A DNA stretch of 5,907 nt, from positions 1-5,907 of the forward strand of contig JALGWK010000365.1 in the NCBI GenBank assembly GCA_025774205.1. The letters are read 5' to 3'. This DNA is from a bacterium (GTDB lineage: Bacteria > Blakebacterota > Blakebacteria > Blakebacterales > Blakebacteraceae). A program made the position numbers and the translations under genes. Positions within the stretch are counted from its first letter, which is position 1, and every line of letters starts with the position of its first letter. Under the pieces are notes generated by a model. That model was not told the DNA's origin. It saw only the letters and a list, made by a program, of their open reading frames with translations, and did not search any database. Below, piece by piece: positions 3 to 5,540 of this stretch.

Positions 3-767
3 GGGCGTCTGCTCCACCGGGCCGTGGATGAGGGGGATCTTGTTTCGGAGGGATCCTTGATAGCTCTCATCGATTCCACTGCCCTGGTCGAAGCCCGGGA
101 GCTGATCCGGGTTGGTCTGCAGGTGATCGCGGTTCAGCGCCACCAGGCGGAAACGGTGCTGGCAGCGGCCCGGGAACGGTTCGATCAGGCGATTCTCAAC
201 CGCGACCGGGTGAAACGACTGGTAGAGGGGAACGCGGCGACCAGGGCGCAGTTCGATGAACTGGAGTCGCTGGTCGAACTGGCCACCCGGCTGGTCGAAG
301 GCGCTGAGACAGCCTTCGAGGTCTTTCCCATCAAGGAAACGGAGATCAGGCTCCGCATGGCCTCCCTCCAGCGTCAGATCAGAGAGTGCAGTCTCTTCGC
401 GCCGCGCGCGGGCAGGGTCATCACGGTTTACCTTGAGCCTGGCGAGGTGGCGGCACCCGGCCGGGGGATCGTGCGGATCGCCGATCTTGAAGAACTCCAT
501 GTACGGGTTTACATTCCCGCCCCTCTCATCGGTCGGGTCACCCTCGGCGGCGAGGCGGTCGTTCGGGTGGACTCCTTCCCCGACCGGACCTTCCCCGGAC
601 GGGTCGTCCACATCGCCGATGAAGCCGAGTTCACACCGAAGAACGTGCAGACTCCCGAGGCCAGGGCCGACCTCGTCTTCGCCGTGAAGGTGACGGTAGC
701 CAATCGGGAGGGGCATCTGAAAATCGGTCTTCCCGCTGATGTCGATCTGCCCGGGATAACGCCGTGA
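3..767 (+). CDS. HlyD-family periplasmic adaptor (membrane-fusion) subunit of an ABC exporter, 5'-truncated
   Basis: The frame is open to the left edge, so the true start, signal peptide or membrane anchor, and first beta strands lie outside the window; the GTG at 24 is only an internal valine. Visible parts in order: the first lipoyl half-motif (VDEGDLVSEGSLIALID, about 24-75); a helical hairpin rich in Glu, Arg, Ala and Leu (about 80-380); the second lipoyl half (FAPRAGRVITVYLEPGEV, about 395-450); then a beta-barrel region ending with FTPKNVQTPEARADLVFAVKV (about 630-690) and a Gly-Leu-Pro-Ala-Asp-Val close. The FTPKNVQT stretch is typical of YbhG/YhiI-type adaptors. Such proteins bridge an inner-membrane ABC transporter to the outer membrane. 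The stop TGA (765-767) overlaps the start of ATPase 1, showing tight operon coupling. The family call is firm; the substrate is unknown. Confidence 0.9.
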   Translation, partial: GRLLHRAVDEGDLVSEGSLIALIDSTALVEARELIRVGLQVIAVQRHQAETVLAAARERFDQAILNRDRVKRLVEGNAATRAQFDELESLVELATRLVEGAETAFEVFPIKETEIRLRMASLQRQIRECSLFAPRAGRVITVYLEPGEVAAPGRGIVRIADLEELHVRVYIPAPLIGRVTLGGEAVVRVDSFPDRTFPGRVVHIADEAEFTPKNVQTPEARADLVFAVKVTVANREGHLKIGLPADVDLPGITP

Positions 768-1690
768 TGCCGGTTCTTTCCACGGAATCACTTTCAAAAT
801 CATACGGGAAGGTCTCTGCCCTGTCCGGGCTCGAGATCGCTCTCGCGCGGGGAACCGTCACCGGGATCCTCGGTCCCGACGGCGCGGGGAAGACCACGGC
901 CATGCGATTGCTGACCGGTCTCCTCCGACCCGGGGCAGGGAGGGTCCTGTTGGGGGAGGAGGATGTGACCGGCTCCCGCGCTTCCAGCGGACGGATCGGA
1001 TACATGCCGCAGCGATTCAGTCTCTACCCCGACCTGAGCGTGGACGAGAATCTGAAATTCTACGCCAATATTTTCGGGGTGCGCGGTGGGGAACGTCGCG
1101 AACGGACCGAACAGCTGCTCCAATTCGCGCGATTGACACCCTTCCGCAAGCGGCGGGCCGCGGCCCTCTCGGGCGGCATGAAACAGAAGCTGGCCCTGGC
1201 CTGCACGCTGATCCACACCCCCGAGATACTGCTCCTTGACGAGCCGACCACCGGCGTGGACCCGATCTCGCGGGCGGAGCTGTGGGAGATCCTGCTCGAA
1301 CTGAAGGAGCAGGGAACCACCATCCTGGTGAGTACACCCTACATGGATGAGGCCGATCGATGTGACGAGGTACTCATCCTCCGGGACGGGATCATCCTCG
1401 ACCGCGGTTCCCCGACGGAACTGCGCTCCCGGTTTCCCCACGAGATCATCGAGATCGAGGCCAGGCCGGTCGGCGAGGCCACCCGGATCCTGGAGCGATT
1501 CGACGGGGTCCGCGAAGTGGTGCCGTTCGGAACCAGGATCCATCTGACGATGCTGGCCGGTAGAGAGGACCGGGAGATGCTGCGGGAGGCGCTCATCGGG
1601 GAGGGTGTGGAGGTCGGTTCCATCCGGACCGCGTCTCCCAGCCTGGAAGATGTCTTCGTGGCGCTCGCCACCGGAGTCGACGCGGCATGA
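764..1690 (+). CDS. ABC-2 exporter ATPase subunit 1 (equivalent to the N-terminal half of YbhF)
   Basis: This is a 308-residue cytoplasmic ATPase that should energise the permeases encoded downstream. Motifs: Walker A GPDGAGKTT (residues 37-45), Q-loop Gln83 in YMPQ, signature LSGGM (135-139), Walker B LLLDEP (156-161) with catalytic Glu160, and D-loop GVDP (164-167). The switch position reads VSTPYMDEAD, so Pro192 stands where the histidine normally is. From memory, the N-terminal ATPase half of E. coli YbhF also lacks this His, so this looks like a family trait rather than damage. A C-terminal region of about 90 residues follows and ends in SLEDVFVAL, typical of drug-export ATPases. Start: GTG 764 or ATG 767; both overlap the adaptor stop and neither has a strong ribosome-binding site, so coupled translation is likely. 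The end overlaps ATPase 2 by 4 nt (ATGA). Confidence 0.93.
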   Translation: MMPVLSTESLSKSYGKVSALSGLEIALARGTVTGILGPDGAGKTTAMRLLTGLLRPGAGRVLLGEEDVTGSRASSGRIGYMPQRFSLYPDLSVDENLKFYANIFGVRGGERRERTEQLLQFARLTPFRKRRAAALSGGMKQKLALACTLIHTPEILLLDEPTTGVDPISRAELWEILLELKEQGTTILVSTPYMDEADRCDEVLILRDGIILDRGSPTELRSRFPHEIIEIEARPVGEATRILERFDGVREVVPFGTRIHLTMLAGREDREMLREALIGEGVEVGSIRTASPSLEDVFVALATGVDAA

Positions 1691-2197
1691 CTCCGCCCGG
1701 GACGATCGCCATAGAGACGCGAGGACTCACACGCAACTTCAGGCGATTCACCGCCGTGGATGAAGTCTCCTTCCAGGTGGAGCGGGGCGAAGTGTTCGGT
1801 CTGCTGGGAGCGAACGGGGCGGGCAAGACCACCACCATCCGGATGCTCACCGGCCTTCTTCGTCCCAGCCGGGGTGAGGCATGGGTGGTCGGTGTGCCGG
1901 TCCACTCTTCACCGGAGAAGGTAAAGCGCCAGCTGGGGTACATGTCTCAGCGCTTCTCCCTCTATGAGGACCTCACGGTCGGGGAGAATCTCACCTTCTT
2001 CGGCGGGGTCTATGGCCTGCCCGGATCAGAAATCAGGCAACGGAAGGAAGAACTGCTCGACCTCTTCGATCTCGATGGACTGGCCGACCGGATCACGTCG
2101 AGCCTGCCGACCGGGCACCGACAGCGGCTGGCCCTGGCCTCGGCGCTCATCCACAAACCTCAACTCCTCTTCCTCGATGAACCGACCGGCGGGATCG

Positions 2198-2208
2198 ATC
2201 CCCGATCT
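2198..2208 (+). other. Deletion/frameshift junction in ATPase 2
   Basis: This is where the frame carrying Walker A, Walker B and the D-loop gives way to the frame carrying the H-loop. Three GATC tetramers lie within 15 nt (2193-2207), two of them inside CGATC. That is the kind of short direct repeat between which slippage deletions occur. The missing helix of about 11 residues plus the one-base offset fits a loss of about 32 bases, but the exact endpoints cannot be assigned without an intact relative. Confidence 0.7.
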
Positions 2209-2387
2209 GGCCGTTGCCGGTACGACCGTCATGGTGACCACCCACTACATGGATGAGGCGGAGTACTGTCATCGCCTCGGGATCATGCGGGAGGGCCGGA
2301 TCGTGGCCGTCGGCACACCCGATGAACTCCGGGAACGGCACTCGGCCGCAACCATGGAAGAGGTTTTCCTCGGGGTTGCCGGACAGC

Positions 2388-2396
2388 AGGAGGAGG
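2388..2396 (+). promoter_or_regulatory. Strong Shine-Dalgarno sequence for permease 1
   Basis: AGGAGGAGG lies inside the last codons of the ATPase 2 reading frame and 4-7 nt before GTG 2401. It supports the GTG start. It also means permease 1 could be translated even though ribosomes on the broken ATPase 2 frame stop at 2256, about 145 nt upstream. Confidence 0.7.
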
Positions 2397-2400
2397 CCTC

Positions 2401-3549
2401 GTGATCGGCCGGATCGCGGCCGTCATGGCCAAGGAGTTCCGGCACATCGTACGGGATTCCCGGAGCCTGATGATCATCTTCCTGATGCCGGTGGTGATGA
2501 CCTTCCTCTACGGCTACGCCATGAATTTCGATGTCAGGGACATCCCCCTGGGGGTGGTCGATCATGACCGCACCCCTGTCTCCCGGGAACTGACCTCCTC
2601 CTTCCTGGCCTCGGGACAGTTCATCCTGGCCGGGCGCTACCGGGACATGGCTGAGGCTGAAGCCGGATTCAGCCTGCGGGAATCGGTCCTCACCCTGGTG
2701 ATCCCGGCAGGTTTCTCCCGTTCACTCGAGGGAGGCGCCGAGCGGCAGATCGGACTCCTCGTGGACGGCTCCGATCCCAACACCGCCTCGATCGCCCTCG
2801 GGTATGCCCGCGGGATCATCTCCCGGGTAGCGGTGGAGGGTTCGATCAAGGCGCTCTCGGCGCTGCGGGACGGGACCGGAAGCATGGTCGGCTGGGAGGG
2901 CCTGCCGATCGAACTCCATCCCCGCTTCTGGTATAACCCGGAACAGAAGAGCAGCCACTTCATTGTGCCGGCCCTGATCGCGGTCATCCTGATGATGGCC
3001 TCGGCGCTCCTGACGAGCGTCACCGTCGTCCGGGAGAAGGAAACGGGAACCCTCGAGCAGCTCCTGGTAAGTCCCGTACGCCCGACCGAACTCATCATCG
3101 GCAAGGTGCTGCCCTACGGGGTCCTGGCCCTGGCTGATGGAGCCTTCATCCTCTTTTTCGGATCCATGGTCTTCGGGGTACCGATCCGCGGCAGTCTCCT
3201 CGTCCTCTTCGGTTACACGGGGATCTACATCATGGCGGCCCTCACCATCGGTCTCGTCATCTCCACCTTTGTCAACGAACAGCGGGTCGCGATGTTCGGC
3301 GCGATGTTCGCGACGGTTCTGCCCGCCTTCATGCTCTCCAATTTCATCTTCCCGGTGAAGAGCATGCCCCTGTTCCTGCAGTGGGTCAGCAAGGCGGTTC
3401 CGGCCACCTACTACATCCCGATCGTGCGCGGAGTGCTGCTGAAGGGAGTCGGCGCGGAAGTGTTCCTGAACAATGGTCTCTTCCTCCTCGCGCTTGCCTT
3501 CGGATTGACAGTCATCAGCATAGCCCGCTTCAGACCGAGGCTTGACTGA
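2401..3549 (+). CDS. ABC-2 type transporter permease 1 (YbhS-like)
   Basis: This is a 382-residue inner-membrane subunit, the usual length for ABC-2 permeases of the YbhS/YhhJ type. The layout is a short cytoplasmic N-terminus with KEFRHIVRDSRSL, TM1 (about 22-41), a large extracytoplasmic domain (about 43-185), TM2 (about 187-210), the hallmark loop REKETGTLEQLLVSP (211-225), and further membrane segments at about 235-258, 264-288, 297-317 and 357-375. The conserved N-terminal MPVVMTFLYGYA and the FPVKSMP region before the last helices are typical of the family. It should pair with permease 2 to form the translocation path. The GTG start overlaps the ATPase 2 reading-frame stop by 3 nt and is supported by a strong ribosome-binding site. 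The frame is intact, in contrast to ATPase 2. Confidence 0.93.
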   Translation: MIGRIAAVMAKEFRHIVRDSRSLMIIFLMPVVMTFLYGYAMNFDVRDIPLGVVDHDRTPVSRELTSSFLASGQFILAGRYRDMAEAEAGFSLRESVLTLVIPAGFSRSLEGGAERQIGLLVDGSDPNTASIALGYARGIISRVAVEGSIKALSALRDGTGSMVGWEGLPIELHPRFWYNPEQKSSHFIVPALIAVILMMASALLTSVTVVREKETGTLEQLLVSPVRPTELIIGKVLPYGVLALADGAFILFFGSMVFGVPIRGSLLVLFGYTGIYIMAALTIGLVISTFVNEQRVAMFGAMFATVLPAFMLSNFIFPVKSMPLFLQWVSKAVPATYYIPIVRGVLLKGVGAEVFLNNGLFLLALAFGLTVISIARFRPRLD

Positions 3550-3551
3550 TC

Positions 3552-4682
3552 ATGCCGAAGAGTCTGCGGATCATAGGCCATCTCGTCCGGAAGGAGTTCA
3601 TCCAGGTCTTCCGGGACCACCAGATGCGCGCCATGATGTTCATGATGCCGGTCGTCATGGTGCTGATGCTGGGGTACGCCATCACGGTCGACGTCCGCGA
3701 TCTCTCCCTCGGGGTGGTCGATTACGATCACTCGCCGGAGAGCCGTCAGCTCGTGGAGAAGTTCCGGCATAATGAGACCTTCGCCCTCGACCGGGTCATG
3801 AGCGGGCCGGCGGAGATCAGGGATGCCCTCGATCGGGGGGAAGTGTCGGCGGTCCTGGTCATCCCTGACGGTTTTGCCCGTCATCTGGGTCGCTATGAGA
3901 CGGTCGAGGTCCAGCTGCTGCTCGACGGGGTGGATTCCAACGCCTCCCTGATCGCCTCGAACCATGTCAGGGGAATCGTGGAATCGTTCTCCCTCGGGGT
4001 GGTGCGGGTCTCCCTGGCCGGCGCGCCGCTGCCCGATCTCCTGCCGCGGGTTCGGGTCCTCTACAATCCGGAGCTGATCAGCCGGTTCTACATGATTCCC
4101 GGAGTCGTGGTGGTCCTGCTGACCATGCTGACAACCCTCCTGACCGGTCTCGGACTGGTACGGGAGAAAGAGACCGGGACCCTCGAACAGCTCTCTGTCA
4201 CTCCGATCCGGACCGGGGAGCTGATCGTGGGCAAGCTCCTCCCCTTCGTCTTCATCGCCTTCTTCGTCCTCGCGATCGCCCTTTCGGTCTGCCTCCTCTG
4301 GTTCGGCGTCCCGATGCGGGGATCGTGGGGCCTGCTGATCCTTTTCTCGCTCCTCTTCCTGCTCAACACCCTCGGTATGGGACTGCTGGTAAGCACGATC
4401 GCCCGGACCCAGCAGCAGGCGCTCTTCATGGTCTGGTTCTTCCTCATCTTCGGGATCATCATGTCGGGCTTCTTCTTCCCGATCGAGAACATGCCGCCCC
4501 TGATGCAGCGTCTCACCTACCTGAATCCGCTGCGTCTGCGTTACTTCCTGGTGGTGGTCCGGGAGCTGTTCCTGAAAGGGAGCGGCCTGGCGTCGTTCCG
4601 TCTGGAACTGACAGGATTGCTGATATTGGGGCCGATCGCGATAACGCTGGCAGCGATCAGGTTCACGAAACGGGCGCGCTGA
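3552..4682 (+). CDS. ABC-2 type transporter permease 2 (YbhR-like)
   Basis: This 376-residue inner-membrane protein is a paralogue of permease 1 with the same layout: KEFIQVFRDHQMR before TM1 (about 26-44), an extracytoplasmic domain (about 45-178), TM2 (about 180-202), the loop REKETGTLEQLSVTP (204-218), and TM segments at about 228-251, 258-280, 288-310 and 351-371. FFFPIENMPP (307-316) and YLNPLRLRYFLVVVRELFLKG (about 323-343) are strongly conserved family features. The start ATG is 2 nt after the permease 1 stop, with GAGG at 3537-3540 as a modest ribosome-binding site, so coupled translation is likely. The intact frame and shared features imply a permease heterodimer. It is the last gene of the operon; the next gene is convergent, 17 nt away. 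Confidence 0.93.
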   Translation: MPKSLRIIGHLVRKEFIQVFRDHQMRAMMFMMPVVMVLMLGYAITVDVRDLSLGVVDYDHSPESRQLVEKFRHNETFALDRVMSGPAEIRDALDRGEVSAVLVIPDGFARHLGRYETVEVQLLLDGVDSNASLIASNHVRGIVESFSLGVVRVSLAGAPLPDLLPRVRVLYNPELISRFYMIPGVVVVLLTMLTTLLTGLGLVREKETGTLEQLSVTPIRTGELIVGKLLPFVFIAFFVLAIALSVCLLWFGVPMRGSWGLLILFSLLFLLNTLGMGLLVSTIARTQQQALFMVWFFLIFGIIMSGFFFPIENMPPLMQRLTYLNPLRLRYFLVVVRELFLKGSGLASFRLELTGLLILGPIAITLAAIRFTKRAR

Positions 4683-5057: not shown

Positions 5058-5540
5058 ATGGAATTCACTCTGGTCCCCATCGACAAGCCCGCGGAACTGA
5101 ACGTGATCCTCGGTCAATCGCATTTCATCAAGACCGTGGAGGACCTGCACGAAGTCATAATCCAGAGTGTGCCGGGGATCAAGTTCGGGCTCGCCTTCTG
5201 TGAGGCTTCCGGACCGCGACTGATCCGCTATTCCGGCACTGATGACGAGATGATCGCCGGAGCCCGCCGGGCATGCGCCGATGTCGCGGCCGGCCACTTC
5301 TTTGCCATCTTCCTGCGGGATGCCTTCCCGATCAACATCCTGAACGCGGTCAAGATGGTGCCCGAGGTCTGCCGGATCTATTGCGCCACCGCCAATCCGC
5401 TCCAGGTGATCGTGGTGGAATCGGACGCGGGTCGGGGGGTCGCCGGCGTCATCGACGGGCAGACGCCGCGCGGGGAAGAGACCGAAGAGCAGCAGCAGGA
5501 ACGGAAGGATTTTCTCCGCATGATCGGCTACAAACTGTAA
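5058..5540 (+). CDS. Adenosine-specific kinase family protein (PF04008)
   Basis: This is a 160-residue cytoplasmic protein that matches, nearly end to end, the small adenosine-binding family known from archaea and scattered bacteria. Conserved blocks: LGQSHFIKTVEDLHE (about residues 11-26), SVPGIKFGLAFCEASGPRL (about 30-48), AGHFFAIFLRDAFPINILNA (about 72-93), VPEVCRIYCATANPLQVIV (about 97-116) and GVIDGQTPRGEETEEQ (about 125-140), ending RKDFLRMIGYKL. A structure of an archaeal member bound to adenosine or AMP gave the family its name; the physiological reaction is not settled. ATG 5058 is chosen because family members begin with a Met-Glu-Leu-like strand here. ATG 5046, four codons earlier, is the alternative, with AAGGA at 5042-5046 serving the 5058 start. 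The frame extends to 4866, but that extension overlaps the divergent gene and lacks family similarity. The SDR gene follows after 29 nt. Confidence 0.93.
   Translation: MEFTLVPIDKPAELNVILGQSHFIKTVEDLHEVIIQSVPGIKFGLAFCEASGPRLIRYSGTDDEMIAGARRACADVAAGHFFAIFLRDAFPINILNAVKMVPEVCRIYCATANPLQVIVVESDAGRGVAGVIDGQTPRGEETEEQQQERKDFLRMIGYKL

Follow-up and report, generated by a model that had tools for sequence, protein, structure and literature searches.

The ybiH-ybhGFSR operon of Escherichia coli encodes an adaptor, a double ATPase, two ABC-2 permeases, and the TetR regulator YbiH/CecR (PMC7190983). Many bacterial pseudogenes are assembly errors, which are commoner at low coverage and have coverage and the choice of assembler among their causes (Cooley and Wright 2024, PMC11017572). 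Here, we report on an exporter operon with a broken ATPase gene in a 5,907-nucleotide stretch of DNA (the window), which is the entire contig C187 of G000, a metagenome-assembled genome of 527 contigs (completeness, 85.9%; contamination, 4.8%).

The operon in the window runs adaptor, ATPase 1, ATPase 2, ABC-2 permease 1, ABC-2 permease 2 (Table 1), and the order of adaptor, two ATPase halves, and two ABC-2 permeases is shared with E. coli YbhGFSR. By the Pfam and NCBIfam matches of each gene and by this order, it is predicted to be an ordinary YbhGFSR-like ABC-2 exporter. Neither the window nor the corresponding locus of its congener (genome G001, locus L010) has the single-polypeptide ATPase of YbhF and RbbA; the two halves are separate genes in both, whereas YbhF is one polypeptide. 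In the congener, a probable TetR-type gene stands directly upstream (TetR_C_29 match just below the Pfam cut-off), in a region that lies beyond the window contig.

A first-pass annotation of the window had described the operon as otherwise intact. That description holds for ATPase 1 and permease 1; the adaptor is truncated by the contig end (the congener has a full-length orthologue), and permease 2 carries a 6-bp duplication. At 5058 to 5540, the window holds an adenosine-specific kinase family gene (PF04008), then a short-chain-dehydrogenase-like reading frame, and the order of the two is the same in the congener.

Table 1. Features of the exporter operon (window coordinates), further frame breaks in G000, and copies of an interspersed repeat
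Feature	Position	Strand	Evidence
YbhG/HlyD-type periplasmic adaptor, 5' end truncated at contig start	3..767	+	NCBIfam PRK03598 "secretion protein HlyD" 1e-27; Pfam HlyD_D23; open frame
ATPase 1 (DrrA/YbhF first-half type), intact	764..1690	+	DrrA 4e-71; RbbA 9e-68; 81% identity to L010
ATPase 2, 5' fragment; true coding to ~2202, then out of frame, stop at 2256	1687..2256	+	ORF of 189 aa; ABC_tran 7.8e-32
ATPase 2 junction, 32 bases of both relatives absent	2201..2204	+	Nucleotide alignments
ATPase 2, 3' part in other frame (H-loop and C-terminus)	2203..2404	+	ORF 1964-2404; 81% identity to L010 past junction
ABC-2 permease 1 (YbhS-like), intact	2401..3549	+	ABC2_membrane_3 2.7e-50; RbbA C-terminal part 3e-74; 85% identity to L010
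ABC-2 permease 2 (YbhR-like), open frame	3552..4682	+	ABC2_membrane_3 1.2e-45; 83% identity to L010
Tandem duplication, 6 bp, CTGCGTCTGCGT, within NPLRYF motif of permease 2	4530..4541	+	Protein alignment; motif scan of 8 relative loci
Frame break, L180 (G000:C111)	~603-606		
Frame breaks (two), L228 (G000:C410)	~1587; ~11077		
Frame break, L066 (G000:C10)	~396		
Frame break, L236	~5206-5233		
Frame break, L175	~2128		
Frame break, L181	~1553		
Frame break, L116	~1804-1829		
Two-part repeat, L228	12730-12882		
Two-part repeat, L243	4679-4856		
Two-part repeat, L229	6322-6487		
Two-part repeat, L063	116-278		
Two-part repeat, L046	17500-17561		
Two-part repeat, L038	14221-14284		
Two-part repeat, L198	2362-2526		

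The gap in ATPase 2

Read from 1687, the ATPase 2 frame encodes the Walker A motif (GANGAGKTT), a signature motif in degenerate form (LPTGHRQ), and the Walker B motif together with the D-loop (LLFLDEPTGGIDP), after which the frame is lost; the H-loop (VTTHYMDEAEYC) lies in an offset frame that ends at 2404 and keeps the GTGA overlap with the start of permease 1. The first-pass annotation had noticed the offset between the Walker A/B and H-loop frames, estimated a loss of about 32 bases (3n + 2) and about 11 residues, and proposed alignment with intact homologues as a check. Open reading frames and alignments place the break at ~2201 to 2204. Nucleotide alignments with the congener (79% DNA identity across the operon) and with G003, a member of a second genus of the family (locus L011), locate the missing segment in a single gap of exactly 32 bases, directly after GATCGATCC. 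The orthologues in both relatives are one continuous open reading frame (249 and 247 aa), against which the frame in the window is disrupted, as in a true pseudogene.

From the DP to the (S/T)THYMDEA motif, there are 22 residues in every intact ATPase 2 homologue with both motifs recognized (L029, L031 to L035, L015, and L016) and 11 residues plus a frame change in the window. Because the 22-residue spacing is constant among intact homologues, those of more distant genomes included, the 32-base gap is not due to chance. Loss of the same residues in relatives, with the frame preserved, had been named at the outset as the observation that would count against a break; it is rejected, the spacing from Walker B to the H-loop being constant in the intact relatives checked. 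A functional frameshift at the junction, or a protein active without the 11 residues, would agree with both frames being still open and conserved, but all relatives encode the protein in one uninterrupted frame with the spacing fixed at 22 residues, and the missing segment is not restorable by a change of frame; we regard this reading as extremely improbable.

GATC/CGATC words around the junction had also been put forward as possible mediators of slippage, a mechanism that the data do not support. GATC occurs at 12.13 per kb, compared with 12.07 expected from trinucleotides, and is thus not enriched beyond composition; a search for direct repeats of at least 8 nt in 2150 to 2260 found none. 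The other break junctions in G000 have no GATC clusters and, on visual inspection, no more than a few bases in common, several of the alignments being ambiguous. A short microhomology at the ATPase 2 junction may still have been involved.

Complementary ATPases and signs of selection

ATPase 1 of the window has a canonical signature (LSGGMKQ), and its H-loop histidine is replaced (STPYMDEA). The same holds among the ATPase 1 homologues seen, in which LSGG is present and the histidine absent (mostly STPYMDEA); in the ATPase 2 homologues seen, the histidine is present (mostly TTHYMDEA) and the signature is usually imperfect. We infer that the sole consensus hydrolysis site would be formed by Walker A, Walker B, and the histidine of ATPase 2 together with the ATPase 1 signature. 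From the established ABC mechanism, a real break in ATPase 2, with loss of its H-loop, would therefore disable the complex and with it the exporter.

This complementarity lends some weight to a real and very recent pseudogenization, in which a 32-bp deletion between the D-loop and the H-loop has left the exporter dead. So do the frame break itself, which is unambiguous against two relatives, and the duplication in permease 2, where CTGCGT is repeated in tandem and in frame and turns NPLRYF into NPLRLRYF. Of the relative loci, eight showed the motif, all without the duplication; some of the eight are duplicate entries of the same genome. It may be real and, as a second lineage-specific change in a conserved motif, could reflect relaxed constraint.

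Relaxed selection, however, is not seen in either half of ATPase 2 or in the neighboring genes. The dN/dS ratio against the congener was 0.10 before the junction and 0.18 after it (0.12 to 0.17 for the other operon genes), and ATPase 2 has gained 10 amino acid changes in the window lineage versus 15 in the congener lineage, with no clear excess. Both halves still look constrained, and the relaxed constraint of a true pseudogene is missing, although a very recent loss would look alike; the pattern agrees with an intact gene or with a loss so recent that it has left no trace. As genes such as fusA, carB, and ppdK are similarly broken in the same assembly (below), we consider real loss of ATPase 2 unlikely.

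Frame breaks across the assembly

The samples in which frame breaks were counted came to about 580 kb for G000 and 530 kb for G001, and about 46,500 orthologous codons were compared. A first, looser screen returned many shadow-ORF matches and was superseded by a stricter one, which required third-position-biased divergence on both sides of a break; each G000 break was then viewed as a nucleotide alignment. Nine breaks were found in G000, the window's own and eight more (Table 1), comprising deletions of 32, 20, 68, 109, 31, 49, 10, and 16 bp and one 22-bp tandem duplication. The genes broken include fusA (EF-G), carB (carbamoyl-phosphate synthase large subunit), a DinG/YoaA-type helicase gene, ppdK (pyruvate phosphate dikinase, which carries the tandem duplication), a DsrK-like gene, and others; disruptions like that of ATPase 2 thus occur at an elevated rate in essential genes of G000, as they should if they are assembly artifacts. 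The 6-bp duplication in permease 2 resembles the one in ppdK.

The broken fusA (EF-G TIGR00484, 1,091 bits; 31-bp frame-breaking deletion) lies in an rpoC-rpsL-rpsG-fusA operon. No other canonical copy was seen in the assembly, which is 86% complete; the remaining EF-G homologues in G000 are paralogues whose identity to the query does not exceed 45%. A living bacterium is very unlikely to carry such a deletion in what is, as far as seen, its one canonical fusA, and the short gaps in G000 are therefore best read as technical. Given a 40%-identical paralogue (EF-G2-like), fusA is strong evidence, not absolute proof, of a technical origin of this class of gaps. A 50-bp loss in G000 (L176 [contig C521], 1108 to 4386, versus L038, 4299 to 4505) has also removed a stop codon, so that two genes, distinct in the congener, are fused.

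The reciprocal search, for breaks in G001, flagged five, which include this 50-bp gene fusion in G000, one beside a run of N in G001, and one in the stretch by which the window's own open reading frame extends upstream, which is probably noncoding. Few candidates then remain in G001, and the clearest of them measures 76 bp. With a few frame breaks in the congener assembly as well (that of 76 bp and the one by the N run), some of the differences could be real.

With the window omitted, the break rate in G000 is about 1.7 × 10−4 per codon, which gives 0.27 breaks expected per five-gene operon and about 157 (68 to 309) per assembly. One break in the exporter operon requires no special cause at this background rate, and the scattered breaks are a genome-wide quality problem of the G000 bin. 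The first-pass annotation had left the choice between very recent loss and an assembly fault; the size and site of the deletion and the intactness of the gene in relatives are confirmed, and the evidence favors the fault. Because G000 breaks essential housekeeping genes in a similar way and at this rate, the gap in ATPase 2 is, on comparison of the sequences, most probably an assembly or consensus fault of a low-quality metagenome-assembled genome. In this case, 32 bases would have been dropped from the contig within an ordinary, functional YbhGFSR-like exporter operon, and an intact ATPase 2 is probably present in the living cell. Candidate sources of the gaps are gap closing, merging on short overlaps, chimeric reads, and strain mixtures.

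Strain variation collapsed in the bin, with the assembler retaining a deletion allele over an intact one, would be in keeping with the estimated contamination, the fragmented assembly, and the many other breaks, but the locus is single-copy in the assembly (a search of G000 for a second, intact copy of the operon locus found none), and an EF-G deletion allele could hardly last in a population; we hold it to be quite improbable. A search of the collection for a second genome of the species also found none; its returns were limited to the congener, two members of the family, and more distantly related genomes. More improbable still is a truly raised rate of short deletions in this lineage, by which the exporter and the other genes would be really broken, or rescued, in living cells.

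An interspersed repeat was seen in passing. It pairs two dissimilar units, each of about 60 bp, head to head with about 40 bp between them; at least a dozen copies lie in the sampled G000 contigs and several in the congener (Table 1). No Rfam match was found in three contigs carrying it.

Meaning for the exporter and the genome

An assembly fault in ATPase 2 would be of the kind known from false pseudogenes (PMC11017572), with which G000 has in common a poor assembly and disrupted reading frames dispersed among conserved genes. That study counted frameshifts and internal stops across genomes, with reassembly from reads, whereas the breaks reported here are deletions of 10 to 109 bp and tandem duplications, seen in the assembly alone. 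The first-pass annotation had concluded that, were the break real, the strain would probably be without a functioning exporter; this assembly should not be taken as grounds for that conclusion. The break in ATPase 2 is most likely not a real feature, and its biological importance is most likely small. By extrapolation from the break rate, about 70 to 310 genes in the G000 bin may be broken in the assembly only. Before a pseudogene or the loss of a transporter is called from a draft metagenome, a frameshift should be weighed against the assembly's own rate of frame breaks.
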